Assembly (NCBI GenBank): GCA_016928395.1
Contig: JAFGKV010000114.1
Coordinates: 28,181 to 92,180 of the forward strand
Length of the DNA: 64,000 bases
Direction: 5' to 3'
Source of the DNA: Candidatus Fermentibacterota bacterium
GTDB lineage: Bacteria > JAFGKV01
Part shown: piece after piece, positions 163 to 16,142 of the stretch
Position numbering within the stretch: the stretch's first letter is position 1
Layout: each line of letters begins with the position of its first letter
Position numbers and translations under genes: made by a program
Notes under the pieces: model-generated
What the model was told of the DNA's origin: nothing
The model's database searches: none
What the model saw: the letters and a program-made list of their open reading frames with translations, nothing else

Positions 163-1344
163 ATGAGGATGGCGATGCGCATACACAAGCCGCTCGAACT
201 CTGCCGGGTTGACCGTGCGTTGATTTTGGCCGCCCTGCCCATGCTGTTCTATGCGGTGGGCACGGCAGTAGTGGCCCGTGACCTCCAATCCCACCTGCCG
301 TCCGGTCCTTCCCGGCTGGTCTTCTCGTCGGCCGTCGACTGGGCATTGGGCGTGGTAGCCGGATATGCTGTTCTCATCGCACTCGGTGTTGTGCTGCGTC
401 ACCGATCGCCATCGAGCGGTGTCTTCGTGTACATGACCCTGGTCTACTTCGCCATCAATAACGCGATTCTGGCCACGTTCATCGGGCCACTCTCCAGCCC
501 GCCCTGGCTCTCCATCCTGGGGCTGGCAGTACTAGGCCTTCTCCTCCTGGGTTCCCGGGAAGTCTTCACCAGTATCAGCATCTACCTGGTGGCATTGGGC
601 CTCATCCATGCGCTGGGGACGACCGGCAGGCTTCCTTACCGGTACATCTTCGAGGAAGGCGCGGCGCCTTCGTGGTGGATGTGGCGGATGGCAGTGGTCA
701 CCATTGCCAATACCGTGATCATCGTTCTGGTTACCGCCTATGTCGTTGCGGCATGGCAGCGGCGGGAATCCAGTTTCCGCGATCTTTCCAACCAGGATGA
801 TCTCACCGGCGTGGGGAATCGCCGCTTTCTCAGCCATGCTCTGCGCACTGAATTCTCCCGCGCCCGCCGCTATGGCCGGGAGATGACCTACGCCATTGTC
901 GATCTTGACCACTTCAAGCGTGTGAATGACCGGCACGGCCATCCCATTGGAGACTTCGTTCTCAGGGCAACGGCAAAGGCTTTGACCGCCTCCACGCGGG
1001 AAAGCGACACGGTCGCCCGCTGGGGAGGCGATGAGTTTGTGCTGCTCTTGCCCGAAACAGGCGTGTCAGGTGCACAGGAACTGGCCGAACGGTGCAGAGC
1101 CGCCATTCGCGCGACCGTGGCCGCCGAGACGGGGATAGGGATCACCAGCAGCGTCGGCATCGCCTCAATGCGCCACGAGGGTCTTCACTCCCCGGATGAT
1201 CTGGCTCGGATCGCGGACACAGCCCTGTACGCGGCCAAGCAGGCCGGTCGGAATCGCGTGGTGATCGCCGCCGAGCCGGCGAAAGACGGCGTCGTCACCT
1301 TTCCTCGAATCGTCTCTCAGAATCCGCGCCCCAACGCTATGTGA
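163..1344 (+). CDS. membrane-anchored GGDEF diguanylate cyclase
   Basis: Predicted to make cyclic di-GMP from two GTP at the inner membrane. The N-terminal half (about residues 10-200) is hydrophobic, with roughly six membrane segments of a MASE-like sensor. The C-terminal half is a GGDEF domain with the intact signature RWGGDEF and an RESD inhibitory I-site five residues before it, so it looks catalytically competent and feedback regulated. The reading frame is open from position 22, but the first 47 codons overlap the riboswitch-like leader and look non-coding; ATG 163 precedes the first membrane segment. The 3' end overlaps the convergent Omp85 gene by 28 nt. The sensed signal is unknown. 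Confidence 0.85.
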   Translation: MRMAMRIHKPLELCRVDRALILAALPMLFYAVGTAVVARDLQSHLPSGPSRLVFSSAVDWALGVVAGYAVLIALGVVLRHRSPSSGVFVYMTLVYFAINNAILATFIGPLSSPPWLSILGLAVLGLLLLGSREVFTSISIYLVALGLIHALGTTGRLPYRYIFEEGAAPSWWMWRMAVVTIANTVIIVLVTAYVVAAWQRRESSFRDLSNQDDLTGVGNRRFLSHALRTEFSRARRYGREMTYAIVDLDHFKRVNDRHGHPIGDFVLRATAKALTASTRESDTVARWGGDEFVLLLPETGVSGAQELAERCRAAIRATVAAETGIGITSSVGIASMRHEGLHSPDDLARIADTALYAAKQAGRNRVVIAAEPAKDGVVTFPRIVSQNPRPNAM

Positions 1345-2933
1345 ACGCGACCCTGGAGCGGATCACTCCCGCGGGGCACGCCGTAGGCTAGTTCGATCAT
1401 GCCCACTGTGGTGCGAGCCATGATACCCATCCCGACCCCCAGCAGTCCTTCATGGCGCTCACCCACTTGATACACGCCACAGTCGACAAACGCGAAAAGT
1501 GATGATGCACCGCGCGATACGCGATGCAACTCCATCACGATCCACCCGGCGCTCTCTGTACGGAATTGGGCTTCACGGTAGCCGCGCACGGTCCGTGCGC
1601 CACCCACCGAGAAGCGCTCGGGAAGCGGAAGCTCCTGACCTCCGTGTACGGCATGCCGCGCAGCACCACGAAGGACTGCCAGGATCCCCGACCCGAGCCC
1701 CAGCGATCGCCGGACGTCGACCTCGACACGTACGACAGGCGTCACGATCTCTGAGGCAATCTCACGCAGTTCCTGGTACCCGACCCTCAGACTCACCCAG
1801 GATCCCGTGGGAGGGACATCGTCGCCATGCTCCCTGTTCCAGATTCCCTTTCCCCACGCCTCATCCGCCCTGGTTGAGGCAAGAGGGGCCCCTTCGCCCG
1901 GAATCACCCGCCGGCCACGATACCCGATGTAGCCCCTGAAGCTGCCTCCGAGGTCCCAACCAAGGGCGACCGTTCCATCCCGCTCCACCCAGAGGGTGTC
2001 TTCCACCACCTGATTGATGCCGATCTCCAGCGACGGCGGCAACCCAAGAATCCACGGCTCACGGTACGTCAGCGCCAAGTCGGTTCGCCCAGCGCCACGG
2101 GCTTCCCATCGGAACGATGCTTCCCGGGCCGTGCCCGCGATGTTGCGAAATGCGGCCTGCACACTGCCCACCACCGCGCCGTCCCTTGCAAGACCCACCG
2201 CGCCCCGGGCTGTATGGGTAACCCGCTCCACCAGGGGAAACCGCACCACAACTCCACCAGGGTCGATGCCGCGCAGAAGTACGGGTTCACCAACCGAGGA
2301 GTAGTACCCGGTTTCTCGCAGTCGAGCCACCGCACGATCCATGCCGCTCTGACGGTACGGCATGCCTGGCCTGATTCCCGCCAGTTTCGACACTACGGAA
2401 GCTCTCGTTCTCACAGAATCCGATACCTCGATGCGCTCGATGACACTCCGCGGGCCTGCAGTCGCGCCGACGCGCAACGTCACCATCCCGGCACTGCTGT
2501 CCACATCCACATGTCGAACGCCGAGAGAAACAAATGGAAACCCCGCCTCCTCATGCGCTCCGAGGAGTGTGCTCAGCCTCGCAGTGACGACGCCTGCCTC
2601 CCACGGACTCCCTGCCAGATCCTGCAACCGCAGCACTGCATCAGCGGCATCCGACGAGGCGCCATCCACCACGATACGAGCCACAGTGTATCGCCGCCCG
2701 GGAACAAGGCGAAGCGTACGCACGCCTTCCGCCGCGGTGGTCTCGAATCGTGCCTCGAAAAAACCGTTCCTGCCCAATTCGACCAGTATATCCTCCTTGA
2801 CGCAGGATTCCCGCCCACTCTCGGTGGTGTCGGCACATGGGGCAGCGAATCGGGAGGCGGCCGACTCCGGTAGGATGTCACTCATCTCCCACACGGTGGC
2901 CATGAGCCCCATCGCTACGACTGCGCAGATCAT
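1317..2933 (-). CDS. Omp85/BamA-TamA family outer-membrane barrel protein
   Basis: Last gene of the minus-strand envelope operon, 538 aa. After one N-terminal hydrophobic segment (the MICAVVAMGLMATVW region) come POTRA-like repeats: about residues 45-150 with RTLRLVPGRRYTVARIVVDG, then IERIEVSDSVRTRASVV...GMPYRQSGMDRAVARLRETGYY. The C-terminal half is a barrel containing the GGARTVRGYREAQF motif, typical of the Omp85 L6 (V/I)RG(F/Y) element. It ends in Phe, as barrel substrates do. This is shorter than BamA and closest in build to TamA or a two-POTRA transporter. The ATG overlaps the upstream TGA (ATGA), so translation is coupled to the giant envelope protein. It probably inserts or exports an operon partner; it is not likely the housekeeping BamA. 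Confidence 0.75.
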   Translation of the reverse strand: MICAVVAMGLMATVWEMSDILPESAASRFAAPCADTTESGRESCVKEDILVELGRNGFFEARFETTAAEGVRTLRLVPGRRYTVARIVVDGASSDAADAVLRLQDLAGSPWEAGVVTARLSTLLGAHEEAGFPFVSLGVRHVDVDSSAGMVTLRVGATAGPRSVIERIEVSDSVRTRASVVSKLAGIRPGMPYRQSGMDRAVARLRETGYYSSVGEPVLLRGIDPGGVVVRFPLVERVTHTARGAVGLARDGAVVGSVQAAFRNIAGTAREASFRWEARGAGRTDLALTYREPWILGLPPSLEIGINQVVEDTLWVERDGTVALGWDLGGSFRGYIGYRGRRVIPGEGAPLASTRADEAWGKGIWNREHGDDVPPTGSWVSLRVGYQELREIASEIVTPVVRVEVDVRRSLGLGSGILAVLRGAARHAVHGGQELPLPERFSVGGARTVRGYREAQFRTESAGWIVMELHRVSRGASSLFAFVDCGVYQVGERHEGLLGVGMGIMARTTVGMIELAYGVPRGSDPLQGRVHIALGRGF

Positions 2934-5900
2934 CAGAAGTACGCTACCAATTCCATCGAACCTTCTCGCACTTTGCCCCTGCCCGCCTCTGATCCGACGC
3001 TCAGGCTCATGGTCAAGGTCAACTTCTCCTGTATCTTGTGTTCGCCCCCAACCTTGATGAGACGGGAGAAACCCTCTTGATCCACGCGGCGCAGCAATGG
3101 AGCCAACGCAGACCACGGCCCATCGGCCCGGCGCCATGCAAGCTCACCATCGATGCGGAACCGTCCTCTCCCGGGCAACGCCAGCCGAAGCCCGGGTGTG
3201 ACCACGGCCGCATGGAGCACGGCCTCGGTCGCTTCTCTGCTCTCGCCCGCCACTTCTCGGACAACGTCTTCCCGGGAGAGCTCGCCGCTTCCCACCACAT
3301 CCAACCGGCCTGTTAGGGGCAGAGAAACAGCCGGCGAGAATCCCCAGGTCTTCGACCTCGCCACCACCGTGCTTCCTCCTGAGAGCGCGGGACTCTCCCG
3401 TTCCTCGGATGAGGCGCGATACACGGCCATGTCGGTGGAAATCATCTTCCATCTCGCTCCCCTCGCCCGCACGGCGCATCGCGTCTGATGACGCCTGGTG
3501 CGCTGGTCTACCCGCCGGTTATCCGCATCGGCAGCGTAGGCGAACTGGGTTGCGATGGCGAACTCGCCGCCCGCGGGCCGAACCTGCATGCTGCCGTCTA
3601 TTCGACTCACGCGCCGTAGTGTCGTGGAATCGCACTTCACTACTGCAGGGCGCAACAGGTAGAGATCCGTTCTCCTGTCTGACCGGCTGGTGACCTGGAT
3701 ACGACCGGTCACGTCAGCATTGATGCGCCGTCGCCACTCCGGGCCACGGCCCCCTGGTGCCAGGCGGAGCCCAACGATCCCCTCCACCAAATCTGTCCTC
3801 TCGGCGCCCCCGGAGGGCACCAAGACCTTTTTGTGAGTACCCAGTTCTGTGCCCACCCACGTTCCCAACGAATCATACTCGCCCACATTGGTCTCCCACG
3901 ATTCCTCCGGGACCAGTTCTTCGACGAGCTGTTCCGATTGTCGGCCCGAGATCTTGTAGTCCAGCTCCAGCCTGGGCCCCCAGGACACCGGCAGTGCGGA
4001 TACCCGTGCGGTGCCCAGAGAGGACACAATGTCCTCGGGCAGAACCTTGCCTTGATCCGCCAAGAGCATCCGGTAGGCAGTGGCATAGCGGAGCCGGGTG
4101 TGGTTGAAGTCAACCCTGGCCGTCGCCTTGACACCCGCGTTCCCCGCCACGCCTATCTCCCACCACCGTCCTGACGAGCTGCGCATCCATGCGTCGGGAT
4201 CCGTGATATGCTCTTTGGTGATTCGGCTGCCGGTTACCACCCTTGCCGTTGTAGCGGAGCGGCCGATTCGTGCGCCCGCGCCGATATCCATGTACCCCCG
4301 GCCCGAGAGCCCGCTGTTCGCCTCTCCCTTCCACATCACGAGAGGACTCCAGAAACCGAAAGGACGATCCAGCGCGCCGTCGGTCCACCACCGCGTGTCG
4401 TCTTTGGCCACTGATCGATTGAAGCGCCCAGTCATTGAATAACCGCCCGGACCCAGAATCGTCCCGGTCACTTGAGCCCGGCGGGATACTGTCGTCCCCC
4501 GGCGCATTCCACCGAGCACGAGGCCGAGGCGACCGTCCCGGGGCAGCCCGAAGGATAGATCCAGCGTGGCTTCGTCCTCGGAGCCAGTGTCGTCGATACC
4601 GCTCCAATCCCGTGTCCATTCCACCGGCCTGGCGCGGCCGGGCGTCGCGAATCCCGCTCCCTGAGACCGCCACGTTGCGCCCCCCTGCCACCACGGAAAG
4701 ACTCCTCCCCCACCATGCGCCGACAGATGGGCGTACACTGCGCCCTGGGTATTGTCCCGGTCATCCCGTGAGGATAAGGTATTAGCATCCCGTACCCCCG
4801 CCGCTGCCTCTACATCCAGACGCATGCTGTCCTCTCCCACGCGAATACCGACAACCGCGCTTTCGTGCGACCGGGGTGCCTGTACGGTTCGCCAGGCCAC
4901 GTAGTCCCCGTGCCCGGGCCCGACATATGCCCAAAAGGCGGCGTCAACGCGCACATAGTCGCCTCCTGCATCACGGTAGAACGTCGCCTCAAAGGCCCCG
5001 GCGCCCCCCCCGAGCGAGCTGATCCGCCCCATGTCCACGGGAGTGTGCGGCGCCCGCGGGATCTCCCCCCCCCGCACTAAGATCACATCCTCACGGCGGT
5101 CGTATGCGCCTGCGCCCGTGCTTTCGGCTCGGGCTGCGAAAGGCCCGCCGCCCGGACCGTAGTACTCGAAACGCGAGCCGACCCGGCGATAGGAGCCCGA
5201 GGCCCCGACCGAATCGAACACTGCGTCCCATCCTCCCCCATCGTGGGGCACGAGAAAGCCAACGTGCAGGGTGTCATACGTGCCCGCGTTCAATCCGACA
5301 AACCGGTAGGTGGGCGCCCTGGCCCGTTCGGGATCGTCGCCCGCGGCCCCCAGCACCGCCCGCTCCTCCTCACCCAGAATCCAGTCCATGGGCTGGGATG
5401 CATCGTCTGCTTCACGAAACGCTGCGAATCGTATGGTTATTGCGTCGGAGATGCTGCGGACTGCCGTTGCCAGGTACACGGTGCGACGGTAGCTCTCCGC
5501 GGTGTACTGGAAGTCGACGCTGATGCGCGACAGTCCGGTAATTGGGCGGCGCTCGGTAAACGTCACCTCGCCAGTCGAATAGTCGATGGTGTAGTCCTTG
5601 TCACTGCCTCGGGCCACGGGCGATCCGTCGACCCAGACCCGTTCCGTTCCCGCCAGGATGACGACGGTACTGGCCCCGCCAGAGAGATGGCGCGCCAGGT
5701 AGTAGGGACCTTGGGCGCCGTCGATGCCGGTGAATTCGACACTCACGAAGGTCCCCCCGGTGGAAGCCGCAGCCACGTCTCCGGACCACTGCCCGTGGGC
5801 CAGCGTACCGGCAACGCCCTGCATCTTTCTCTCAAGGCTCAAGAACCTGAACCCTTCTGTGGCGATGGCGCAATCGCCCACGCTAAGACTGCTCTCCTTC

Positions 5901-6538
5901 CGCTTCAGCTCGATGACCACACGGTCAATGTCACGCAGCTCCTGGGTCGTGCCCTGAGGCTGGATGGGCGTACTCTGGTCACTCAGTGAGGCGGTGACCT
6001 CCACGTCGCCCGCCAGCCTCCCCTGAAGCTGTACCTGTAATGCCTGGTCAAGGCTGGGATCTTTGCCTGAGCCGAACCGTACGCCGATGGTCTTGGTGCC
6101 GGCGACCTGGAGGGAATGCTCGGACGAGAGATCGGCGGGGTATTCCGTGGCGGGAGCGGCCGCCGTCACTGCCACAATCTCTTCACCCGGCGAAGGCAAA
6201 GCGCGGCGCTGGAGGTGAACCGGTATGCCCAACGGCAGAAAACGATACTGGATGCGTACCGTGCTTTCGGCCATGCTGGGGAGGAAGTGAATGCGATTGC
6301 GGAAGTCAAGACGAAACCCAGCGCCGGCGGAGAGAAGAGAGTCGGCCGCCCACACCACGACGGATTCGCCCACGACAAAGGAATCCGGCAGCGCCACCTC
6401 CCGAGGCACCGGTGGTCCTAATGCGATAACCCTCTGGATCCCTGGCGCCGCCTGGGCATTGAGCCCGAGGAAAAGCAGAAGGATGCAACAACGGATAGCC
6501 CAGCCCCTGCCTGACGGCGCCCGTTCTTCCCTGTCCAC
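2933..6538 (-). CDS. giant secreted envelope protein with SprA-like motifs
   Basis: About 1201 aa with an N-terminal signal (WAIRCCILLLFLGLNAQA). Its body is rich in beta-strand patterns with alternating aromatic and charged residues, consistent with a large outer-membrane barrel. Around residues 290-350 it carries GTERVWVDGSPVARGSDKDY followed by TIDYSTGEVTF and RISVDFQY. That pattern recalls the segments of SprA, the T9SS translocon barrel of Bacteroidetes, and of large uncharacterised FCB envelope proteins. I chose GTG 6538: upstream codons of the open frame are an out-of-frame reading of the NHL gene. It lies 46 nt after the NHL gene and is translationally coupled to the Omp85 gene. The exact family is not recognised; homology to SprA is inference from short motifs. 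Confidence 0.6.
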   Translation of the reverse strand: MDREERAPSGRGWAIRCCILLLFLGLNAQAAPGIQRVIALGPPVPREVALPDSFVVGESVVVWAADSLLSAGAGFRLDFRNRIHFLPSMAESTVRIQYRFLPLGIPVHLQRRALPSPGEEIVAVTAAAPATEYPADLSSEHSLQVAGTKTIGVRFGSGKDPSLDQALQVQLQGRLAGDVEVTASLSDQSTPIQPQGTTQELRDIDRVVIELKRKESSLSVGDCAIATEGFRFLSLERKMQGVAGTLAHGQWSGDVAAASTGGTFVSVEFTGIDGAQGPYYLARHLSGGASTVVILAGTERVWVDGSPVARGSDKDYTIDYSTGEVTFTERRPITGLSRISVDFQYTAESYRRTVYLATAVRSISDAITIRFAAFREADDASQPMDWILGEEERAVLGAAGDDPERARAPTYRFVGLNAGTYDTLHVGFLVPHDGGGWDAVFDSVGASGSYRRVGSRFEYYGPGGGPFAARAESTGAGAYDRREDVILVRGGEIPRAPHTPVDMGRISSLGGGAGAFEATFYRDAGGDYVRVDAAFWAYVGPGHGDYVAWRTVQAPRSHESAVVGIRVGEDSMRLDVEAAAGVRDANTLSSRDDRDNTQGAVYAHLSAHGGGGVFPWWQGGATWRSQGAGFATPGRARPVEWTRDWSGIDDTGSEDEATLDLSFGLPRDGRLGLVLGGMRRGTTVSRRAQVTGTILGPGGYSMTGRFNRSVAKDDTRWWTDGALDRPFGFWSPLVMWKGEANSGLSGRGYMDIGAGARIGRSATTARVVTGSRITKEHITDPDAWMRSSSGRWWEIGVAGNAGVKATARVDFNHTRLRYATAYRMLLADQGKVLPEDIVSSLGTARVSALPVSWGPRLELDYKISGRQSEQLVEELVPEESWETNVGEYDSLGTWVGTELGTHKKVLVPSGGAERTDLVEGIVGLRLAPGGRGPEWRRRINADVTGRIQVTSRSDRRTDLYLLRPAVVKCDSTTLRRVSRIDGSMQVRPAGGEFAIATQFAYAADADNRRVDQRTRRHQTRCAVRARGARWKMISTDMAVYRASSEERESPALSGGSTVVARSKTWGFSPAVSLPLTGRLDVVGSGELSREDVVREVAGESREATEAVLHAAVVTPGLRLALPGRGRFRIDGELAWRRADGPWSALAPLLRRVDQEGFSRLIKVGGEHKIQEKLTLTMSLSVGSEAGRGKVREGSMELVAYF

Positions 6539-6584
6539 CGCGCCTAAACCGTTCCGTCCACGGAACCGCGGGCGCGCCGTCGCG

Positions 6585-7439
6585 CTACGGCACCTCGGCC
6601 AGGGCAAGCCCCACGATCGTGTCGCTCTCACGTTCCGCGACAAGAAGCATGCCATCCGTGGCGAAACACACGGCGGACGGGCTGGCGAGTTGCGGCATGC
6701 CGGCAGGCGGGCATGACAGATCGTAGACGACACCGTTCTTGAACACCCTGACGACATGTGCCTCCTCGTCAACCATCGCGCCGAGCCCGTCTTTGCGAAT
6801 GTCCACGCTCCCCGGCGATCCCCCCACCGCGATGGCTCCCCGATGGTTGCCGTGTGTGTCAAAGAAGTGCACAAGGCCTCCAGCCTGATCAGACACCGCC
6901 ACACGTCCAGCCGCACATGCGAGGCCGGCCGGTATGAGCGGGATTCGCGGTTCGTCTCCTGCCCCGCTGAGTCGGCGCAAGCCATCGAAGGGGTCTGTTA
7001 CCATGATCGTTCCTGAGCCCTCGTCGGCGACAAACACCCGCCCGTCGGGCAGCGAGGCCACTGCCAGGGGTTTCCAAGGCCACACTCCGCCACCGGGGCC
7101 ACGGATCTCCGTCACGGGCACACCGGCTCTGTCGACCTTCAGCATGCGTGAACCGTCGGTATCAGCCAGATAGACGAACTGCCCCCCCGGATCCGTGACT
7201 GCCACGCGGTCTGAGAACTCCATCCATCCCTGCCCATTCCCACCGAAGGAGCGGACATGCCTGCCGTCCATAGAAAAGAAGTGAAAACGGGCCACTCCAC
7301 GGTCTCCCACCCAGAAACCACCATGGGGACTCCGCGCCAACGCCTCCGGGCCATGCAGGATGCCCGGCCCAACCACCACGGATGACGACATCACCGACAC
7401 GGTCTCCATAGCGGCGGCCGTCAGCAGCGCAAGTATCAT
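6585..7439 (-). CDS. NHL-repeat beta-propeller protein
   Basis: 284 aa, with a hydrophobic N terminus (MILALLTAAAMETVSVM) that is a probable signal or anchor. It then shows five or six NHL-type repeats, for example GVARFHFFSMDGRHVRSFGG, FVYLADTDGSRMLKVD, VFVADEGSGTIMVTDPF and AVSDQAGGLVHFFDTHGNHR. These build a beta-propeller that usually serves as a protein-binding platform. ATG 7439 is chosen because it overlaps the tonB stop (ATGA) and starts right at the signal sequence. In this operon it probably acts in the periplasm between TonB and the outer-membrane parts. No catalytic residues are recognised. Confidence 0.75.
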   Translation of the reverse strand: MILALLTAAAMETVSVMSSSVVVGPGILHGPEALARSPHGGFWVGDRGVARFHFFSMDGRHVRSFGGNGQGWMEFSDRVAVTDPGGQFVYLADTDGSRMLKVDRAGVPVTEIRGPGGGVWPWKPLAVASLPDGRVFVADEGSGTIMVTDPFDGLRRLSGAGDEPRIPLIPAGLACAAGRVAVSDQAGGLVHFFDTHGNHRGAIAVGGSPGSVDIRKDGLGAMVDEEAHVVRVFKNGVVYDLSCPPAGMPQLASPSAVCFATDGMLLVAERESDTIVGLALAEVP

Positions 7440-8128
7440 CGGAGAACAAACTCCACGGTCACGTCGCCGGTGGCGTCGGCGGATCCCGTCACCGATTCGA
7501 AACGCCATTGTCGAAGAGCCTCTATGGCGGCGTCATCCAGGGCGGGGTGAGCTTTGAGTACCAGAGTCGCGACCCTGACGTTCCCGTCCGGCGTGACCAC
7601 CAGACGAACCTTGACAATCCCCCCGCTGGGCGCGCCCGGGGGAAAGACCGGGTCGACCATGTAGATCGGCGTTCGGGTCGAGAGCGTCCCTTCCACTCTG
7701 ACTTTGACTCCCGATCCCACCGCCGGCGAGGACGTGGTCACCGGCATCGGAGCCAGTCGTGCGCCCGGAGAGGGGCCGGGAGGGGCAGGATCGGACGGGG
7801 AGAGCAAAGGGCTGGGGGGACGGTCCGAAAGAGCAGAGGAGGCCGGCAAGTCGGGAAGAAGTGCTTCGTTCCGCTCGGAAGCCGGCAGCGGCGCGATGTC
7901 ACCGGTGCGTGCCCGCGGCCCTGTGGACTCCCGGGGCGGTGCCTGCGGCGCCGGCTGTTCCTCTGCCGAGGAGATCTCTCCAGCCAGCAACTCCACCTCC
8001 AGAGGCGGCGCCGCCATGGGCCGCACAGAGACATGAACAAGGAGGAAAAGCACGGCAAGGAGACCGTGCAACGCCACGGCGGCTCCCACTCCCACATGAG
8101 AGGGGGAACACCACGGATCGCGTCTCAC
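7436..8128 (-). CDS. tonB: TonB-family energy transducer
   Basis: 230 aa. It has one N-terminal membrane anchor (about residues 12-33), a Pro/Ser-rich periplasmic spacer (about 55-150), and a C-terminal TonB domain with IYMVDPVFPPGAP, GIVKVRLVVTPDGNV and HPALDDAAIEALRQWRFES. TonB passes proton-motive force harvested by ExbBD to outer-membrane proteins. GTG overlaps the exbD stop (GTGA). The operon has no recognisable TonB-dependent receptor with a plug domain, so the partner may be the giant envelope protein or the Omp85 barrel. The short Pro-rich spacer is shorter than in E. coli TonB-type long linkers but adequate for the family. Confidence 0.88.
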   Translation of the reverse strand: MRRDPWCSPSHVGVGAAVALHGLLAVLFLLVHVSVRPMAAPPLEVELLAGEISSAEEQPAPQAPPRESTGPRARTGDIAPLPASERNEALLPDLPASSALSDRPPSPLLSPSDPAPPGPSPGARLAPMPVTTSSPAVGSGVKVRVEGTLSTRTPIYMVDPVFPPGAPSGGIVKVRLVVTPDGNVRVATLVLKAHPALDDAAIEALRQWRFESVTGSADATGDVTVEFVLR

Positions 8129-8547
8129 CGGGCATCCTCCGGCTTCGACGCGATAAGCAACCGCTGGTACCCGGCGCGACGACCTGCATCCAGTACGCTC
8201 ACCACCCAGTGGAACTGGCTCACCCGATCTGCCCTGATGATGAGCGAGGGTACTTCCTGCACGGGATCCAACGCGTGACGCAACTCCTCTTCCAGGCGTT
8301 CCGCCCCGATCCTCCGGGCGCCGAGAAAAATCTCACCGCGCTCGGTCACCGTCACCACGACTCGGTTGTGGGGCTCCGGCTCTGCGGTCTGAGTTCGTGG
8401 GAGGTCTATCTTGATACCCGGCTGCACCACGAAACTCGATGAGAGAAGGAAGAAGATCAGGAGCAAAAACACGATATCGGTAAGCGAGACTGCCGGGATG
8501 GAGGAGATCCGACGCCGTGACGTCTCAAACAACGACCGGGCCATCAT
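8125..8547 (-). CDS. exbD: ExbD/TolR biopolymer transport protein
   Basis: 140 aa. It has a short cytoplasmic N terminus (SLFETSRRRISSIPAVS), one membrane helix containing the essential Asp (SLTDIVFLLLIFFLLSSSF), and a periplasmic domain ending VVSVLDAGRRAGYQRLLIAS, which is typical of the family. With ExbB it forms the inner-membrane proton channel that energises TonB. Two ATGs in tandem (8547, 8544) follow AGGGTGAAG; either would overlap the exbB stop by about 20 nt. Its stop overlaps the tonB GTG. TolR is the alternative name, but the adjacent tonB favours ExbD. Confidence 0.9.
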   Translation of the reverse strand: MMARSLFETSRRRISSIPAVSLTDIVFLLLIFFLLSSSFVVQPGIKIDLPRTQTAEPEPHNRVVVTVTERGEIFLGARRIGAERLEEELRHALDPVQEVPSLIIRADRVSQFHWVVSVLDAGRRAGYQRLLIASKPEDAR

Positions 8548-9160
8548 CTTCACCCTGAGTCGGCACCAGGCGCAGCAACTCCACCGCTGCGCGACGCATC
8601 TGGTGAGCAAGGCCTTCGATCTCGCCCACCAGCCAGTTGTTGCCGATGAGCGCGGGTATGCCCACCACCAATCCTCCGGCCGTGGTGACCAAGGCCTCCC
8701 AGATTCCTCCAGCGAGGATACTGGCATCAACCTGCCCGGCATGGGTCTGCACCTGCATGAAGGCCCGGATCATGCCCGTCACCGTGCCTAAGAACCCGAC
8801 CATGGGCGCGGCGGCCGCCACGATGGCGAGCCAGCCTATGCGCCGCTCAAGAGTGTCGATCTCCAACTGCCCCGCCATGGCCATGCCGTCCCGCGCGACA
8901 TCGCGATTGCCGCCGGCCTCCAGCCCCGCCAGTAACACCTTCGCTACGGGTGCGGTGCTTCGCCTGCACCGGGCCTGTGCTACTTCTTCCTGGCGCTCCT
9001 TGACCAGCGCCAGGATTTCCCAAGAGATCCGGTCAGTCCCCTTCCGGGCGCGCCGCAACACGATGTAGCGCTCGATGAACACCGCCAGGGCCACCAGTGA
9101 CCCCAGCGCGATGGGCACCATGAAGTAGCCGCCCTTGATCACCAGCGTGAGAAGATTCAC
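8525..9160 (-). CDS. exbB: ExbB/TolQ/MotA proton channel protein
   Basis: 211 aa with three membrane helices: one near the N terminus (VIKGGYFMVPIALGSLVALAVF), and two after a cytoplasmic loop (LAIVAAAAPMVGFLGTVTGM and a segment containing GGLVVGIPALIGN). The motifs APMVGFLGTVTGMI and EALVTTAGGLVVGIPA are diagnostic of the MotA/TolQ/ExbB family. It forms the proton-conducting pentamer around ExbD. GTG 9160 is chosen because GGAGGGAG stands just upstream; the longer open frame would run through the preceding gene. The start shares its G with the upstream TAG (TAGTG). Confidence 0.9.
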   Translation of the reverse strand: MNLLTLVIKGGYFMVPIALGSLVALAVFIERYIVLRRARKGTDRISWEILALVKERQEEVAQARCRRSTAPVAKVLLAGLEAGGNRDVARDGMAMAGQLEIDTLERRIGWLAIVAAAAPMVGFLGTVTGMIRAFMQVQTHAGQVDASILAGGIWEALVTTAGGLVVGIPALIGNNWLVGEIEGLAHQMRRAAVELLRLVPTQGEDDGPVVV

Positions 9161-10587
9161 TAGGCTCCCTCCTGCCCGTAGGGCCGTTTGAGGCTCCATC
9201 CTAATCCGATCGCCACCATCGTGCGAGGACGCGCGGTGAGGCTGAACCCCCACCCACTGGATCCTCGAGCTATCGCTTCCCAACCCCCTCCCAGAGGCAT
9301 CGCCACATCCAGCGTGACACCGCCTGATGCCGGGAGTGAAGCGTCCCACCCATGCAGTCCTGTTTCTCCTTCCACCGTTGCCCGGAGCCGGGGACGCTGC
9401 CCGCGGGCAGCAGACACCCACCACTCCATTTCCGGAATGAGGGGCCACTGCGCCGAGTACGGCAGAGAGCCAGCCCGGGTGGTGACCTCCAGTCCATCCA
9501 ACGCCACGCCGCCACTGATCCGCCCTCGCGAGTCATGCCACGACACGGCCAGGCTTACCTTGAAGCCTTCTCCGGCCAGCGATTCCGTTACCCAGAGGTC
9601 GTCAACTTCCCGCCAGGCAGGCGCATGGCCAATGTGTCGATCCTGGAGAGTCCCAACGACGGTCATCCGGGGCGACGCCCGAACAGCCACGGTCGCGTCC
9701 ACACTCCAATCCGTCACACACGCATGGCCAGAGGTCGTGGGATGGGCTGCGGGGAAGGCCTCACGCAGCGAGGTCTCATCGAGAAACGAGAGTGTCCGCT
9801 CTGCCGAAATCGCCCACGCGGTGCGTCCCAACGAGAGGGGACCGAGGCGAGTGGATGCCTCCATGATCAGGCGAGTCGTGTCACCATCGTCAACCATCAT
9901 GGGACCGGCGCTGACCATGATCCGGGGACTCTCGTGGCACCAACGCACCATGCCGCCCGCGACATGATCCCCCCCCGTCACCTCGAAGGGAAGATGCACT
10001 CCCGGCACATGGCCGGATACCCAGGCCTGACCATGGAAGGTGCTCTTCTCCCCCTCCCAGCCGCTCCCCGAGACCATGGCCCGGGTATGGTACAGGCCCA
10101 ACGGGACCTCAGCCCAGAGACGTCCATGGACCCAGCCCGGTGCGACCTCGATCTCGTCCAGCCGATCAGCCCAGTGCTGCACCCTTAGTCCCACGGACCC
10201 CCACGCGCCCGCCGTCAGAGCGCCGGCGCGCATGCCCCGGCGCTCCAGACGCCCCGCATCGAAACTCCAGAGCCGGGCCGCCACCCCGCCGCCGGCTTCT
10301 CCGAGACCGGCCGTAATCACTCCCGCGTACACGGGACCGGCGGCCGCGGACAGGCTGAATCCTACCGGGGGAGGCCGGTGAAGCGGCCGGACCGGGGCCT
10401 CCCGGTGCGAATCGCCCATCTCCGGCCTCGGCAACTGAATCGGGGGGATTGCCCGAGGAAGCAGCGGGGCAGACCAGAACTCCCTCTGGGGAAGATCAAG
10501 CTGTGGGGAGCCCTTCACCACCAGATGGGGCAGGTCTAGCTCGCCGGCCGCCATGACGAAGATCAGGCCGGCGACAAGGCTGCTCAC
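9160..10587 (-). CDS. uncharacterised secreted protein, possible outer-membrane barrel
   Basis: 475 aa with an N-terminal signal (MSSLVAGLIFVMAAGEL) and a Pro-rich stretch to about residue 75. The rest is Gly-, Trp- and aromatic-rich, with short alternating segments (VGLRVQHW, HGRLWAEVPLGLYH, FKVSLAVSWHD, WEAIARGSSGWGFSLTARP) of the kind seen in outer-membrane beta-barrels. No known family is recognised. GTG overlaps the stop of the TPR gene (GTGA), and its stop shares a base with the exbB start, so it is made together with the TPR protein and ExbBD. It could be the outer-membrane client of the TonB system, which is inference from position only. Confidence 0.6.
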   Translation of the reverse strand: MSSLVAGLIFVMAAGELDLPHLVVKGSPQLDLPQREFWSAPLLPRAIPPIQLPRPEMGDSHREAPVRPLHRPPPVGFSLSAAAGPVYAGVITAGLGEAGGGVAARLWSFDAGRLERRGMRAGALTAGAWGSVGLRVQHWADRLDEIEVAPGWVHGRLWAEVPLGLYHTRAMVSGSGWEGEKSTFHGQAWVSGHVPGVHLPFEVTGGDHVAGGMVRWCHESPRIMVSAGPMMVDDGDTTRLIMEASTRLGPLSLGRTAWAISAERTLSFLDETSLREAFPAAHPTTSGHACVTDWSVDATVAVRASPRMTVVGTLQDRHIGHAPAWREVDDLWVTESLAGEGFKVSLAVSWHDSRGRISGGVALDGLEVTTRAGSLPYSAQWPLIPEMEWWVSAARGQRPRLRATVEGETGLHGWDASLPASGGVTLDVAMPLGGGWEAIARGSSGWGFSLTARPRTMVAIGLGWSLKRPYGQEGA

Positions 10588-13430
10588 GGGCCGGCTCCAA
10601 CGCCTTCGCCCGCCAATCGCCGCGCAGCCTCATTGGCTGGAGCCGCCAACGAATCCTGAGGGGAGAGGTAGGCCAGCCGGAGATAGAGCCTGCGTGCTTC
10701 ACTGATGCTGCCCAAGGCTTCCTGAACCCGCGCGGCAATCCAGTAGACCCGTGGGGAGGGCCCGGTCGAGCGTTCAAGAAGCGGCGAAAGCCATGCCCAA
10801 GCGCTGTCGGCGCGGTCGGCGGCCAAATGCGTCTCCGCCCCGGCCAGGACTGCCTTGTCGCGCCACTCCACGCCGCCGGTGCTGGCCAGTGTCGCCCAGA
10901 CGGCAATGGCCGAATCGGAGGAATCTTCAAGGGCGAAGCCCAGTTCATACCGTGCGGCGTCTCCCAGCTCGCTGCCTGGATAGAGGGCCAACATCTCTCG
11001 CAATAGCCTCGCCGCGGTAGCGGAATCCCGGGGGCGGGAGAGCCGCGCAGCCTCGTAGAGCCCCTCTGCGGCTTCGCGGGCATCGGGCCAAAGGCGAGCC
11101 AAGGACTCAAATGCCTCCTGCGCCTCGTCCACCCGCCCGGAACGGGCAAGACTCCACGCGGCACGCAGATCTGCCCAAGGCGTGCCAAGACTTCGATACA
11201 AGGGCAATGCATCCTCGTATCGATTGAGCCCGAAAAGAAGGTCTGCCTTTGCCTGGATCAGCCCGCTCCTCCTGCTCTCGTCCTGCGCCCGATTCAGCAG
11301 GGTATCACAGAGGATGATGGCCTGCCCGGCATCCGACGACTGCAATTCCGCCCACAACGCTCCCTGGACGGCATGGGCCCACAGGTCAGAGTCAGGATAG
11401 CCTTGAACCAAGGAGAGATACGTGGTACGGGCAGTAGCATACTCACCACGGTTATACTGACAATCTCCGATCCGATAGAGGGCATTGTCCCGCACTGTAC
11501 GATCCCGTTGAAGGGCGACTACCCGTCGGTATTCGACCTCCGCCTCGTCGAATCTGCCGGCGCGGAAGAGGGCCTCAGCCTTCTCGAACAGCGCATTGTC
11601 GGCAATGTCTTCGGTGGGCGATGCATGGAATAGCCTGTCCAGCGTGGCAATAGCCTCATCAGTCTCACCGGCCAGCGACAGGGCCCGCCCCAGCCCCAAC
11701 AAGGCTTCATCACCAATCTCGCGGCGGGCAACAATCTGGGTCGCCGCCCGGTACGATGCTGCGGCCTCGCGGTAGAGTTCCTGGGCCATGAGCACGTCCC
11801 CCGCGCGAAGAGTTGCCCTGGCAGCAGTCTCTGATCGCGGGTCGGCCGCCGCGGCTTCCCTGAAGCCCGCCAAAGCGTCGTCGTTCTTCCCCATGGAAAG
11901 AGAGGCCCATGCCCTGCCGAAGGCTGCGTCAGCCCGCTCCCGAGCCGTCGGCATGCCCGGAAGCGCCTCCCGATAGGCGGCCTCCGCCTCGGACCACCTC
12001 CCCTGACGGGCAATGGCCTCAGCTTTCCAGAATGCAATCCTGGCCGCAAGGCTGTCGTTCACCGACCCGCTGAAGGCACCGGCCAGACGCTCCACCCGAT
12101 CCCATGACTCGGCACGATAAGCGGCAACCAGGGCCCGATATCCTAGATCGTGCGCCAGGTCTCCTTGCGCACGATCACGGGCATCGAGGAAGTACTCAGA
12201 TGCATCGCTCCACCGGCCCTCGGCCGCCGAGATCTCAGCATAGAGAGCAAACGCCTCCACGCTGTCTCCGCGGCTGTGCAGGCGGGCCAAACCCCGGTCA
12301 AGGGTCTGCCTCGCCTCCCCCAGCCGGTTAAGATCGCGCTGGAGGCTCGCCCGAAGGAGAATGGCCCTGGCCAGCAGCGTCCGGTCGCTGATCCCGGCAG
12401 TTTCCACCGCCAGGAGCGAATCACCCGCCCCGGGCCGATCTGTCCTCTGAAGTGCGCTGGCCAGCAGGACTGCTGCCTCGCCCCGCTCGCTGCCCTCAAG
12501 CGTGCGCATGGCGCCTGAAAGCAACGCCGACGCCTCTTTGGGCCGGTCTTCCTCCATGTACATCCACCCCAGCAGCCTCACCGATTCAAGCCCGCGCTCG
12601 GCGAGAACCGCGATGGCCTCATCGTGCCGGCCCTGATCCCAGATGCTGCGCGCCTTGAGTTCCCGCACCACTCGCGAATCCGCTCGTTCTGGCCAGCGCC
12701 GCGCCAGTGTCTGGAGGGTTACCTCGGTATCCGCGGGACGCTCCGTCTCCACCAATAGCCTCGCCAGGGACACTATGTCATCAGGCCGTGCATCGGGGCT
12801 GGCTACCAGCCTCGTCAAGACGTCTCTGGCCTGCTCGTCGCGCCCCATGCGCTGCAGGGCCTCGGCCTGGCGTCGCAGTGCCCATCCGTGGAGATCACCG
12901 GCGGGAAGCTTCTGGGTTGCCTGGCTCAGGAGTTCCGCGGCGCGGGGAAACGCATCTCGCCTGAATGCCGCCTCGCCGGCCCAGTAGATAGCCTCACCTG
13001 CTCCATGAGAGGCCTCGGCGGCAGCCCGAAGATACAGGCTCTCGGCTTGAACGAACGAGCCCAGCTCGAACAGCGTCGCAGCGAGACGGAGGAGGGCTTC
13101 ACCTGTCCATGGTGAGACCGGATGCGTGGCAATAAAGGATTCCAGACGTGTGCGAGCGCGTACCCATTCACCCAGTTGCACCCAGCAGTCTGCCGCCAGA
13201 AAGGCGGCTTCCTCGGCATCGGGATGTGATCGACGCTGAGCGACGAAGCGTTCGAGTTCATCAGCAGCCAGACGGTACTCGCCCTGGGAGTAAAGGTGCC
13301 GGGCGAAGTCAAGATCGAGCCGGGCACCGGCATCGGGTTGCGCGCGTAGTGGTGACACCGATGGCATGAGGACCACGAGGAGCCCGACAGCCCCGATGAC
13401 CGCACCGCGGGGATGAAAACGCCGCATCAT
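10584..13430 (-). CDS. large periplasmic TPR-repeat protein
   Basis: 948 aa. It has an N-terminal signal (AVIGAVGLLVVLMPSVSPLRA), then nearly continuous tetratricopeptide repeats to the C terminus. Examples are FARHLYSQGEYRLAADELER, ALFEKAEALFRAGRFDEAEV, ALYRIGDCQYNRGEYATART and AWSLARSGRVDEAQEAFESL. Such long periplasmic TPR solenoids scaffold envelope complexes; YbgF/CpoB beside Tol-Pal is a small relative in role. The ATG at 13430 overlaps the previous stop (ATGA); the open frame extends further upstream but that part reads through the preceding gene. It is tightly coupled to the ExbBD-TonB genes. Its binding partner is unknown. Confidence 0.8.
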   Translation of the reverse strand: MMRRFHPRGAVIGAVGLLVVLMPSVSPLRAQPDAGARLDLDFARHLYSQGEYRLAADELERFVAQRRSHPDAEEAAFLAADCWVQLGEWVRARTRLESFIATHPVSPWTGEALLRLAATLFELGSFVQAESLYLRAAAEASHGAGEAIYWAGEAAFRRDAFPRAAELLSQATQKLPAGDLHGWALRRQAEALQRMGRDEQARDVLTRLVASPDARPDDIVSLARLLVETERPADTEVTLQTLARRWPERADSRVVRELKARSIWDQGRHDEAIAVLAERGLESVRLLGWMYMEEDRPKEASALLSGAMRTLEGSERGEAAVLLASALQRTDRPGAGDSLLAVETAGISDRTLLARAILLRASLQRDLNRLGEARQTLDRGLARLHSRGDSVEAFALYAEISAAEGRWSDASEYFLDARDRAQGDLAHDLGYRALVAAYRAESWDRVERLAGAFSGSVNDSLAARIAFWKAEAIARQGRWSEAEAAYREALPGMPTARERADAAFGRAWASLSMGKNDDALAGFREAAAADPRSETAARATLRAGDVLMAQELYREAAASYRAATQIVARREIGDEALLGLGRALSLAGETDEAIATLDRLFHASPTEDIADNALFEKAEALFRAGRFDEAEVEYRRVVALQRDRTVRDNALYRIGDCQYNRGEYATARTTYLSLVQGYPDSDLWAHAVQGALWAELQSSDAGQAIILCDTLLNRAQDESRRSGLIQAKADLLFGLNRYEDALPLYRSLGTPWADLRAAWSLARSGRVDEAQEAFESLARLWPDAREAAEGLYEAARLSRPRDSATAARLLREMLALYPGSELGDAARYELGFALEDSSDSAIAVWATLASTGGVEWRDKAVLAGAETHLAADRADSAWAWLSPLLERSTGPSPRVYWIAARVQEALGSISEARRLYLRLAYLSPQDSLAAPANEAARRLAGEGVGAGP

Positions 13431-14032
13431 TCGCTCGTGACAAAGAAGAGGGCCAGCAACGTGCCTACCACGCCGGCGACCACCATGGGCGCCACCACAC
13501 CTGGCGACGTAGGCACTGCTGCCGAAGGTGTGAAAACAGGATCGGACAACCCTGCCAATTCGACGGCCGGTGTCCACTCCTGCCGGCGGTCCACGGCCCT
13601 GGTGCTGGCAATCACGTCGCCGCCCGGCCCGAGCAGCCGCGCCACCAGACTACACGACCCATCGCGCAGAACCCAGGGTTTCATCATGATCCCCCGTCGG
13701 TCAACTTTCCGATGGCGAACCCCCAACTCCACGATGCGCACGTGGAGTGTGTGGGTCGTGGAGTCACGTCCACTCTCCCGCAGCGCAAATCCGCGACCCA
13801 GCAGCTCGCCCTCCAGCAATGAACGCACAAGCCATGCGCCTTCGCCCCCGCCCGTCATCTCAAGACTGAGGCCTTCTTGTGGGTACGCCTTACATAGTGC
13901 GGTCACGCTGTCCACCGCGACGGCAGCCGCCCTGCTCACCATCTCGAGATCGGTAGGCTGCGGACGAAGCTGGGCAGAACCGGATGCGCAGGCCAGGAAC
14001 CCCAACCCGACCAAGGCGAGGTAGCGCCTCAC
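13427..14032 (-). CDS. secreted or lipoprotein-like protein with C-terminal membrane segment
   Basis: 201 aa, family not recognised. It begins with a signal-like segment (RRYLALVGLGFLACASG); the FLAC could be a weak lipobox. The middle has an alpha/beta look (EGAWLVRSLLEGELLGRGFAL, then HTLHVRIVELGVRH), which resembles small outer-membrane assembly or LPS-type accessory lipoproteins, but I cannot assign it. The C terminus is a hydrophobic helix (VVAPMVVAGVVGTLLALFFV) ending within four residues, a tail-anchor arrangement. It starts with GTG overlapping the lipoprotein stop and ends overlapping the TPR start. Confidence 0.65.
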   Translation of the reverse strand: MRRYLALVGLGFLACASGSAQLRPQPTDLEMVSRAAAVAVDSVTALCKAYPQEGLSLEMTGGGEGAWLVRSLLEGELLGRGFALRESGRDSTTHTLHVRIVELGVRHRKVDRRGIMMKPWVLRDGSCSLVARLLGPGGDVIASTRAVDRRQEWTPAVELAGLSDPVFTPSAAVPTSPGVVAPMVVAGVVGTLLALFFVTSE

Positions 14033-14547
14033 GGCTCCTGCTCCAGATCATACAAGTCGGTAATACGGAAGCGATCGTCGGCGCACCTCGTAATCACAAA
14101 CTCCGCCCAGAAGTAGCCGACGCCTTTCTCGAAAAGCTGGTCGGCGGTCTCCCAGACGAGTAGATCGCACTCTCGGTACAAACGCCACGTCTCCGGATCG
14201 TCGCTGATTCTGGTCGCATAGTCTCCCACCATGGTCAGCTCGATGTGATCCATGGTGCTGAACATCTTGCGGTGCATCCGCTCCTCCTCCACCTTGCCCC
14301 AGGAAGGCGCCGGCCAGATGTCGTTCACGTCGCGGGGGACCAGATGGAACTCAAAGGTGTCCACGAGGCATTCCAAGTAGCGGTCGATATCTTTGCGTTG
14401 ATAGGCGTTGGCCAGTTGCACGACGACGCCTGCAGGGGTTGCCAGCAAATCCTGGGGGTCACCATCATCCTTGTCCGGGTCAAAGATGCAACCGGCAAGG
14501 CATAGGGCCGCCACCGGCAGGATCACGCCCACTTTCCATCTGGTCAT
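14029..14547 (-). CDS. lipoprotein, possible NTF2/SnoaL-like fold
   Basis: 172 aa. It has a clear lipobox, LCLAGC, about 20 residues from the start, followed by Asp-rich residues. The mature part (ATPAGVVVQLANAYQRKDIDRYLECL, shown here as separate strings: VVVQLANAYQ, RKDIDRYLEC; then GVGYFWAEFVIT near the end) resembles the helix-strand pattern of NTF2-like domains, although no active-site residues are seen. The start overlaps the ClpX-like stop by ATGA. It is probably an outer-membrane or inner-membrane anchored accessory of the operon's envelope complex. The fold call is tentative. Confidence 0.65.
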   Translation of the reverse strand: MTRWKVGVILPVAALCLAGCIFDPDKDDGDPQDLLATPAGVVVQLANAYQRKDIDRYLECLVDTFEFHLVPRDVNDIWPAPSWGKVEEERMHRKMFSTMDHIELTMVGDYATRISDDPETWRLYRECDLLVWETADQLFEKGVGYFWAEFVITRCADDRFRITDLYDLEQEP

Positions 14548-16142
14548 GGCTCCTCCTTATCCTCTGAGTTACCCGCGGACTTCGACCGGTTTGAACCCGT
14601 AGGCAGCGGGGGTTCACGGTGGGCATACGTGGTCTTGATCATCGCATCAAGGTAGGCACGGGGATCTTTGCATGCCGCGAGGCCAAGTCGCAGGCTCCTC
14701 TTACCCGCCAACTGCAGGCCGTACTCCAAGTCCGCGAACCGCTCCTGGCAGAATGCCTTGACATCCTGACCATCCTGCGTTGCGCGGTCAATGATCCAGC
14801 GACGAGCCGGGGGAGTAATATCGATTCGGATCCCGGTGCGTTCCCGAAACTGGCTCGCAAAGACCTCAAGCAGCCCTTTCACCAGCACCTGCCGAAGATC
14901 TCCCTCGGGATCAAGAACTGTGTCCTTCGTCACCACGACCCGGGGAATTCCGGAACCGGGGATTCCATGCTCGAAGGGCAGTAGGCATCGCTCCAGAATC
15001 GACTTCAGGCCCCGAGCGCCAGTCCCCTCGGCGGACGCACGATGGGCGATCTCCCGGTATGCATCATCGGCAAACTCCAGGGTTACCCCATAGGATGCGA
15101 AGTCCCGTATCTTGCCTTGCGTGAGTGGGCTCAGCGGAGTCCTGAGGATCTCCAGGAGCTTATCTTCATCCAACGGGTGGAACACCACGACGATGGGAAG
15201 CCTGCCGATGAACTCCGGTTCAAACCCGTACGCGATAAGGTCTTCAGAGCGAACCTGGGAGAGAATCCAAAACGGATTCTCAAACTTCGCCTCTTCAGTA
15301 GACTCGAAGCCGATGACCCGTTTGCGCAGGCGACGGCGTATGATATCGTCCAGCCCGACAAACGCACCGCTCATGATGAAGAGTATGTTGCGGGTGTTAA
15401 TCTTCTTCCGGTGTACGCGGCCCGTGCGCTGGGCCTCCATCATCGCCTCCATCTGACTGGCCAGATCGAATGGCGCCCGCAGATCGACTTCCGTCTCCTC
15501 CATGAGCTTCAGCAGGTTCCGCTGCACACCCGTACGGGACACATCCGGTCCCTGTGTGACACCACTGGCCGCGATTTTGTCGATTTCGTCAAGATAGATG
15601 ATCCCATGCTCCGCCAGAGAAACCATACCGTTGGCCTGGTGGGCCAGATCCCGGACCAACTGCTCGACATCGCCACCCACGTACCCGGTCTCGCTGAACT
15701 TGGTGGCGTCACCCTTGACGAACGGCACCCCCAGTTCTTCGGCAATCAGCCTGACGATGTAGGTCTTGCCCACACCCGTCGGGCCGATCATGAGCATATT
15801 CGCCTTCACCTCCCCCACGAGACGCCGCTCAGCAGAGGCCGATTCCCAGGCTACCCTGTGAAAATGCGTACAGACCTTCGTTGCCATGGCCCTGGTAGCC
15901 TCGCCCTGCCCGATGACGAACTGCCGGAGACTGCCTTCCAGGCCGGCAGGCAACACGTCGAACCGAATCCTCTGGGGTTCATCCTCCGGCTCCTCCGCCT
16001 TCGGTGGCGCCGGACGCGCCGCAGGCATCATGACCTTCACACCGTACTGGTCACCGATAAAGCCCTGCAGCTTCTCCTGGAGTTTCTCCAGGACACGCTC
16101 GAAGCCCTCGGCACCCTCTTCCCTTGTCGTCTCGTCACTCAT
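14544..16142 (-). CDS. ClpX-like AAA+ unfoldase without zinc finger
   Basis: 532 aa, first gene of the envelope operon. It carries the ClpX AAA+ core: Walker A GPTGVGKT (120-127), pore loop GYVGGDVE, Walker B IIYLDEIDK, sensor 1 NILFIMSGAF, arginine region EFIGRLP, and sensor 2 GARGLKSI. An IGF tripeptide (RVIGFES) lies where ClpX has its ClpP-docking loop. It differs from true ClpX (about 420 aa): the N-terminal zinc-binding domain is replaced by a helical, Pro-rich stretch of about 60 residues, and there is a C-terminal extension of about 110 residues. ATG 16142 follows AGGAAGG. It probably unfolds or regulates operon proteins, with or without ClpP; no clpP is nearby. Confidence 0.85.
   Translation of the reverse strand: MSDETTREEGAEGFERVLEKLQEKLQGFIGDQYGVKVMMPAARPAPPKAEEPEDEPQRIRFDVLPAGLEGSLRQFVIGQGEATRAMATKVCTHFHRVAWESASAERRLVGEVKANMLMIGPTGVGKTYIVRLIAEELGVPFVKGDATKFSETGYVGGDVEQLVRDLAHQANGMVSLAEHGIIYLDEIDKIAASGVTQGPDVSRTGVQRNLLKLMEETEVDLRAPFDLASQMEAMMEAQRTGRVHRKKINTRNILFIMSGAFVGLDDIIRRRLRKRVIGFESTEEAKFENPFWILSQVRSEDLIAYGFEPEFIGRLPIVVVFHPLDEDKLLEILRTPLSPLTQGKIRDFASYGVTLEFADDAYREIAHRASAEGTGARGLKSILERCLLPFEHGIPGSGIPRVVVTKDTVLDPEGDLRQVLVKGLLEVFASQFRERTGIRIDITPPARRWIIDRATQDGQDVKAFCQERFADLEYGLQLAGKRSLRLGLAACKDPRAYLDAMIKTTYAHREPPLPTGSNRSKSAGNSEDKEEP

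Follow-up and report, generated by a model that had tools for sequence, protein, structure and literature searches.

In this study, we describe an operon of eleven minus-strand genes that joins an ExbB-ExbD-TonB motor to a putative outer membrane barrel related to SprA, the translocon of type 9 secretion (T9SS). The operon lies at positions 16142 down to 1317 of the window, by which we mean the whole stretch of 64,000 nucleotides that was analysed. Its anatomy, i.e. the gene set and the domains, is solid. With somewhat less than even confidence, we infer that it encodes an export machine of the SprA type that is energised by TonB, allied to T9SS and equipped with a dedicated Omp85 protein. None of the eleven frames contains an internal stop, and each starts with ATG or GTG. 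In order of transcription they are:

14544..16142, minus strand: g1, ClpX-like AAA+ unfoldase of 532 aa with an extra C-terminal region (ClpX-model match and motifs)
14029..14547, minus strand: g2, predicted lipoprotein of 172 aa (lipobox LAGC; homologue at the same place in genome G002)
13427..14032, minus strand: g3, envelope protein of 201 aa (signal sequence, hydrophobic C-terminus; homologue at the same place in G002)
10584..13430, minus strand: g4, periplasmic TPR scaffold of 948 aa (YbgF/BamD/PorW-type TPR matches)
9160..10587, minus strand: g5, lineage-specific, probably strand-rich outer membrane protein of 475 aa (conserved N-terminus)
8525..9160, minus strand: g6, ExbB/TolQ proton-channel subunit of 211 aa (PF01618, 96.1 bits)
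8125..8547, minus strand: g7, ExbD/TolR subunit of 140 aa (PF02472, 87.8 bits)
7436..8128, minus strand: g8, TonB-family energy transducer of 230 aa (PF03544, 33.7 bits; TIGR01352, 36.5 bits)
6585..7439, minus strand: g9, periplasmic NHL beta-propeller of 284 aa (PF01436)
2933..6538, minus strand: g10, the giant, a predicted SprA-superfamily outer membrane barrel of 1201 aa with C-terminal Phe (profile and predicted structure)
1317..2933, minus strand: g11, Omp85-superfamily protein of 538 aa with POTRA domain(s) (PF01103 and PF07244 above cut-off)

The most plausible start of the giant is the GTG at 6538, which gives the length of 1201 aa. Recomputed from g1 to g11, the junctions are overlaps of 4, 4, 4, 4, 1, 23, 4 and 4 nt, a gap of 46 nt and an overlap of 1 nt. 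The first-pass annotation had counted eight stop/start overlaps (those of 1 or 4 nt), an exbB/exbD overlap of about 23 nt and one 46-nt gap, and these figures are exact. A convergent plus-strand GGDEF-like frame (22-1344) lies downstream of the Omp85 gene and a plus-strand frame starts upstream at 16511, so that the operon stands as a self-contained unit. In compact operons, short gene overlaps alone are ordinary. It is the conservation of gene order in the phylum, not the overlaps, that makes the eleven-gene run more than chance.

The phylum sample comprised three genomes, G000 (the source of the operon), G001 and G002. In G002, one contig has g1 to g5 at its end and another has g6 to g11 at its end, in both cases in the order of the operon. 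In G001, g1, g4 and g5 share one contig, a second contig has g9-g10 and a third has g10-g11; the simple ORF caller did not resolve g2 and g3 there, and of the g6 to g8 region only a g8 fragment before g9 was recovered. The order in both genomes is thus pieced together from separate contigs, between which breaks remain. The G001-like contig with the g8 fragment (L030) is deposited as Candidatus Eisenbacteria. Whether the gene order is kept elsewhere had been raised in the first-pass annotation, together with the possibility that the set occurs only here. The same order, in contig pieces, is present in the other two genomes of the phylum, and a core of NHL propeller, giant and Omp85 extends across the FCB phyla; the set is not confined to this genome.

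The motor is recognisable part by part. ExbB (g6), ExbD (g7) and TonB_C (g8) domains are all above their Pfam cut-offs, as are the NHL, Omp85/POTRA and TPR domains of the neighbouring products. Alignment to solved ExbD places the transmembrane Asp of g7, in LTDIVFLLLIFF, at the position of the ExbD channel Asp. The transducer g8 has a transmembrane His (His21, in ALHGLL, conserved in two relatives, G002 among them), a Pro-rich linker and a TonB C-terminal domain that exceeds the cut-offs of both PF03544 and TIGR01352. The unfoldase g1, whose homologues stand first in the operon in G001 and G002, scores 300 bits against the ClpX model (cut-off 359). Alignment to solved ClpX shows that it keeps Walker A (GPTGVGKT), Walker B (IIYLDEID), the GYVG pore loop and the ClpP-docking IGF tripeptide. 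The TPR matches of g4 to YbgF, BamD (76 bits) and PorW/SprE-type proteins are generic TPR matches below the family cut-offs. Full-length relatives of g4 are found only in G001 (63%) and G002 (45%); elsewhere only TPR-type partial matches were obtained. The Omp85 protein g11 matches BamA at 62.9 bits against a TIGR03303 cut-off of 297 and hence falls outside the BamA equivalog.

No Pfam or NCBIfam family matches g2, g3 or g5, and a full-length relative of g5 outside the phylum was not found among the 389 genomes searched. The mature N-terminus of g5 (L-LPxLVVxG) is conserved in all three relatives and resembles a TonB box, which makes g5 a candidate TonB contact. The AlphaFold model of g5 (pLDDT 38, three sequences) is of poor quality and served only to note predicted strands.

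The giant itself has nothing above cut-off in Pfam or NCBIfam, and it scores 11.1 bits against the SprA model TIGR04189 (cut-off 200), well outside the equivalog. A separate SprA is encoded on another contig of the source genome (G000:C299) and scores 489.7 bits against the same model. Relationship between the two became clear by profile comparison. When a profile of 74 giant homologues was compared by HHalign with a profile of 31 SprA proteins, giant columns 304-391 matched an SprA beta-domain (probability 96, E 1.9e-9), columns 45-115 matched the same beta-domain (probability 94, E 7.7e-8) and columns 153-360 matched the SprA N-terminal region (probability 86, E 5.3e-6). Control profiles (Omp85, NHL, M6, PorV, PorU-type, DUF5683) gave a best p of 0.016, which is near chance. 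With a single SprA sequence as the target, the homology had been suggestive.

A sequence search of the PDB with the 74-sequence giant profile found no match, and structural comparison was therefore needed. The giant is predicted to be an outer membrane barrel: the model built from the 74 sequences (pLDDT 82.4, pTM 0.76) contains some 40 strands. The C-terminal residue of the family is a Phe of the outer membrane type. In Foldseek, SprA chains took ranks 1-3 (E about 1e-7) at low TM-scores of 0.14-0.28. VIA-align placed 694 residues of the model on 6H3I and 709 on 8GL6 (Z about 15), against at most 343 residues for any non-SprA structure among the matches listed. Porins, AlgE and ushers ranked slightly above SprA by Z, over 250-340 residues only, and we take these matches to reflect general barrel similarity. 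From profiles and model we conclude that the giant is a distant SprA homologue that lies outside the SprA equivalog family. Since the genome has a separate SprA, the giant is not the T9SS translocon itself. The first-pass annotation had listed, as a refuting outcome, that the giant might be a known T9SS part; this fails for the translocon, of which the giant is a distant homologue.

Relatives of the giant are widespread. A scan of the genome collection with a five-sequence giant alignment as query (an earlier seven-sequence alignment was too diverse) confirmed at least 532 places. Plasmid records gave no relative. The best 80 of these at least 532 loci belong to phyla of the FCB type, among them Calditrichota, KSB1, Zixibacteria, Gemmatimonadota, Latescibacterota, Eisenbacteria, Krumholzibacteriota, Ignavibacteria and Bacteroidota. 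One giant homologue belongs to Pedobacter helvus (L106). Within the best 80, an NHL propeller stands directly upstream of the giant in at least 37 of 77 scorable loci and an Omp85 gene directly downstream in at least 32 of 68. Both counts are lower bounds, as ORF calling in GC-rich DNA was crude. These two are the sole strongly recurring neighbour families in this set, and NHL propeller, giant and Omp85 alone make up the core that is kept outside the phylum. In 12 loci, two or more genes out of PorV, T9SS-dependent M6 protease and DUF5683 precede the core. By NCBIfam, one neighbouring gene belongs to the PorV family (L071, 226 bits, cut-off 90) and another is a PorU sortase (L084, 422.7, cut-off 420), and a T9SS-dependent M6 match lies just below its cut-off (L033, 537 against 600).

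In the loci examined from other phyla, the core stands without motor genes, apart from a single Balneolales locus (L079) with the order giant, ExbB, a 90-aa frame, ExbD, ExbD, an adjacency that could be chance. The tie between ExbBD-TonB and the giant is otherwise found only in this phylum. The open-access journal literature searched contains no description of an SprA paralogue family, and the giant barrel family looks undescribed.

The giant is closely associated with T9SS at the level of genomes. The source genome has SprA together with sorting-tail cargo (72 matches to Por_Secre_tail, the type A sorting tail), the combination that marks T9SS. Among 389 genomes, SprA was found in 96 and the giant in 85, both in 80 and neither in 288 (Fisher p 5e-60), with best E values of about 1e-28 or better for SprA and about 1e-30 or better for the giant, in lists that were read by hand. 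Of the five giant genomes without strong SprA, four have weak SprA matches; for the fifth, SprA is present in a congener. That the searches for SprA and for the giant found different genes is shown by the lengths of the open frames (in most rows about 1880-2400 aa for SprA and 1040-1290 aa for the giant). Because the p-value ignores phylogeny, we give more weight to the nesting of the giant within SprA genomes; the co-occurrence may in part be due to shared FCB ancestry. The GldM model TIGR03517, built on Bacteroidota GldM and liable to miss remote motors, matched 4 of the 389 genomes, only two of them SprA-bearing and the source genome not among them. The result concerns a GldM that the model can recognise and does not show that a motor is lacking.

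The operon has the kinds of part of GldLM-SprE-SprA in other forms, namely ExbBD-TonB, a TPR protein and an SprA relative, and adds a propeller and a dedicated Omp85. A TonB-energised export apparatus allied to T9SS is the simplest reading. Here we infer the direction of export, the TonB contact, the role of each accessory protein and the replacement of GldLM. The eleven products would form one trans-envelope machine. ExbB-ExbD would use the proton gradient to make TonB work, and TonB would pull or twist an outer membrane partner across the periplasm, with g5 and its TonB-box-like mature N-terminus as the likeliest contact. The giant would be the outer membrane end, an SprA-superfamily barrel of sufficient size for an export pore, which g11 probably inserts or holds. 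The NHL propeller and the TPR protein g4 may act as a periplasmic hub, as SprE/PorW does on SprA. The proteins g2 and g3 would be envelope accessories, and the ClpX-like g1 might clear or recycle cytosolic client or component proteins. Allied to the cell's own T9SS, such a machine probably carries protein through the outer membrane, and ExbBD-TonB would take the role that the GldLM motor has in Bacteroidota.

A bolder version, which we consider unlikely, sets the secretion system apart from T9SS: ExbBD-TonB would drive export through the SprA-superfamily barrel, and the core of NHL propeller, giant and Omp85 would be a second, undescribed SprA-type translocon across the FCB superphylum. Until now, SprA has been regarded as one family of translocons. 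The giant family looks like a second SprA branch of about half the length in many FCB phyla, and could be a component of T9SS that has been missed, as it occurs almost only in SprA genomes and, in some loci, beside T9SS genes. ExbBD-TonB next to an SprA relative also makes the powering of secretion outside Bacteroidota testable. The first-pass annotation had seen in the operon the best candidate of the window for an undescribed system. This is too strong, since the giant is a distant SprA homologue found almost only in SprA genomes. A better description of the operon is an SprA-family module, itself undescribed, that is allied to T9SS and has a TonB drive specific to the lineage.

Sequence alone cannot decide between secretion, assembly and motility. 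The main and serious rival, although in our estimate an unlikely one, is a BAM/TAM-like machine in which Omp85, propeller and TPR protein assemble outer membrane proteins with energy from ExbBD-TonB, the giant being a scaffold or the main client. It is the main rival because Omp85, propeller and TPR protein are the kinds of part found in BAM and because the Bacteroidota BAM is known to recruit further subunits, one of them a second kind of barrel, BamG (PMC12611786). The match of g11 to BamA, that of g4 to BamD, a weak PQQ_2/BamB match of the propeller g9 (E 0.016) and the Omp85 gene directly behind so many giants are all consistent with assembly. However, the matches of the TPR protein and the propeller are of a generic kind and do not reach the family cut-offs, BAM does not need ExbBD-TonB, and the giant is homologous to a translocon, to no known BAM part, and tracks the presence of SprA.

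A gliding or surface-motility motor like Myxococcus Agl-Glt or GldLM gliding, with ExbBD-TonB driving surface adhesins via the TPR protein and the barrels, appears improbable. With such motors the operon has kinds of part in common, i.e. a PMF-driven stator, a TonB-like transducer, a TPR protein, barrels and a lipoprotein; g8 shows a very weak match to the AgmX/PglI C-terminus (E 0.0036). In Bacteroidota, SprA-type secretion and gliding share a motor (PMC10994853). Yet neither an adhesin nor a Glt-specific protein was recognised in the operon.

Ordinary TonB import, with the giant or g5 as the outer membrane receptor, seems quite improbable. Import is what ExbBD-TonB usually energises, the N-terminus of g5 resembles a TonB box, and the source genome has 12 Plug (PF07715) matches outside the operon, receptors that the operon TonB could in principle serve. 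These 12 matches also show that the Plug model works in this genome; even so, Pfam finds no Plug or TonB-dependent-receptor domain in the giant or g5, and the receptor reading was dropped. Among the matches listed, no receptor aligns with the giant over more than about half the length that SprA covers, and substrate-binding, ABC and other uptake genes are absent from the unit. In the first-pass annotation the operon had been seen as an energised outer membrane machine without a plug-type receptor rather than a nutrient importer, with the proviso that the giant might prove to be an ordinary receptor. Our results agree: ExbBD-TonB, a complete-looking module with its Asp and His kept, lies in a conserved unit with outer membrane parts and without a receptor, which makes such a machine likelier than an importer. 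A divergent Tol-Pal operon (TolQ-TolR-TonB/TolA, then a propeller, with a YbgF-like TPR protein) is hardly credible and was dropped as well, for although the ExbB-ExbD-TonB-propeller order recalls tolQRAB, g6 scores best against TolQ (85.6 bits) and g4 matches YbgF, the unit has no Pal, in other phyla the NHL gene accompanies the giant in the absence of tolQR, and a separate locus (L154) has an OmpA/Pal-like lipoprotein, TolQ/ExbB and a TolB-like frame. The lack of a plug domain and this separate locus are what disfavour import and Tol-Pal, respectively.

The export machine that we favour shares features with several known systems. The N-terminal region and the repeated small beta-domain of SprA (PDB 6H3I, 6H3J, 8GL6, 8GL8) are homologous to the giant, some 700 residues align, both occur in the same genomes, and PorV and PorU stand beside some giant loci. 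In contrast to SprA with about 1900-2400 aa, the giant has about half that length, is far below the family cut-off in a genome with its own SprA, and is coupled to an NHL propeller and Omp85. The GldLM motor is itself ExbBD-related. In Flavobacterium, PMF-driven GldLM powers SprA, and the TPR protein SprE is placed on its periplasmic side (PMC10994853). The operon resembles this arrangement of GldLM (PorLM) and SprE/PorW in Bacteroidota T9SS in having a PMF motor and a TPR protein on an SprA-type barrel (PMC10994853). It differs in that the motor is ExbB-ExbD-TonB, GldM is not recognised and g4 is below the PorW cut-off. With BAM, including its Bacteroidota form, it shares Omp85 with POTRA, a propeller and a TPR protein, but the Omp85 of the operon is a short one that does not reach the BamA cut-off, and TonB motor and SprA-like barrel lack a BAM counterpart. 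ExbBD-TonB import systems have the same three proteins, above the Pfam cut-offs and with channel Asp and TonB His, whereas the outer membrane partner here is not a plug-type receptor. The likeness to Tol-Pal lies in the order of motor, transducer and propeller and in the YbgF-like TPR matches; the difference lies in Pal, which the operon lacks and the separate Tol-Pal-like locus of the same genome provides.

The genome from which the window derives carries a second ExbB-ExbD-TonB cluster, on contig C172 (locus L151), and in a Balneolales genome (locus L079) the gene for the giant, the SprA-superfamily outer-membrane barrel, itself stands next to ExbB and ExbD genes.

L151, 5925-16070 (G000:C172): ExbB-ExbD-TonB cluster, then two giant TPR proteins and a PEGA/NHL-domain protein
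L079, 9677-15699: giant, then on the same strand one ExbB and two ExbD genes, with a 90-aa frame between ExbB and the first ExbD

The L151 gene set is a motor-TPR-propeller array parallel to the window operon. The N-terminus of its PEGA and NHL domain protein, EEITVFGEQ, is also TonB box-like. The L079 arrangement is possibly an independent link between the giant and a proton motor. In the phylum of the window genome the first operon gene is the ClpX-like unfoldase (window 14544-16142), which retains the ClpP-docking tripeptide and has an additional C-terminal region.

In seven KSB1/Calditrichota loci (L036, L041, L048, L051, L053, L057, L064) the NHL-giant-Omp85 core occupies a fixed site downstream of rpsB-, tsf-, pyrH- and frr-like genes, which suggests that this position is old and stable. 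In six Bacteroidota loci (L042, L072, L075, L082, L093, L106; Chitinophagales and Pedobacter), none with NHL or Omp85 neighbours of the giant, its gene lies directly 3' of signalling-type family genes, grouped by mutual clustering and resembling histidine kinases/response regulators by appearance.

Concerning type 9 secretion, the complete genome G063 gives a strong match to the motor protein GldM, yet is not listed among the SprA matches; either SprA is absent from this genome or the initial SprA search overlooked it. Within the window, two proteins match the C-terminal sorting tail.

35284-39192, + strand: M14 zinc carboxypeptidase, likely type 9 secretion cargo
60101-62620, - strand: subtilase, likely type 9 secretion cargo

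The carboxypeptidase and the subtilase are both likely cargo of a type 9 secretion system.
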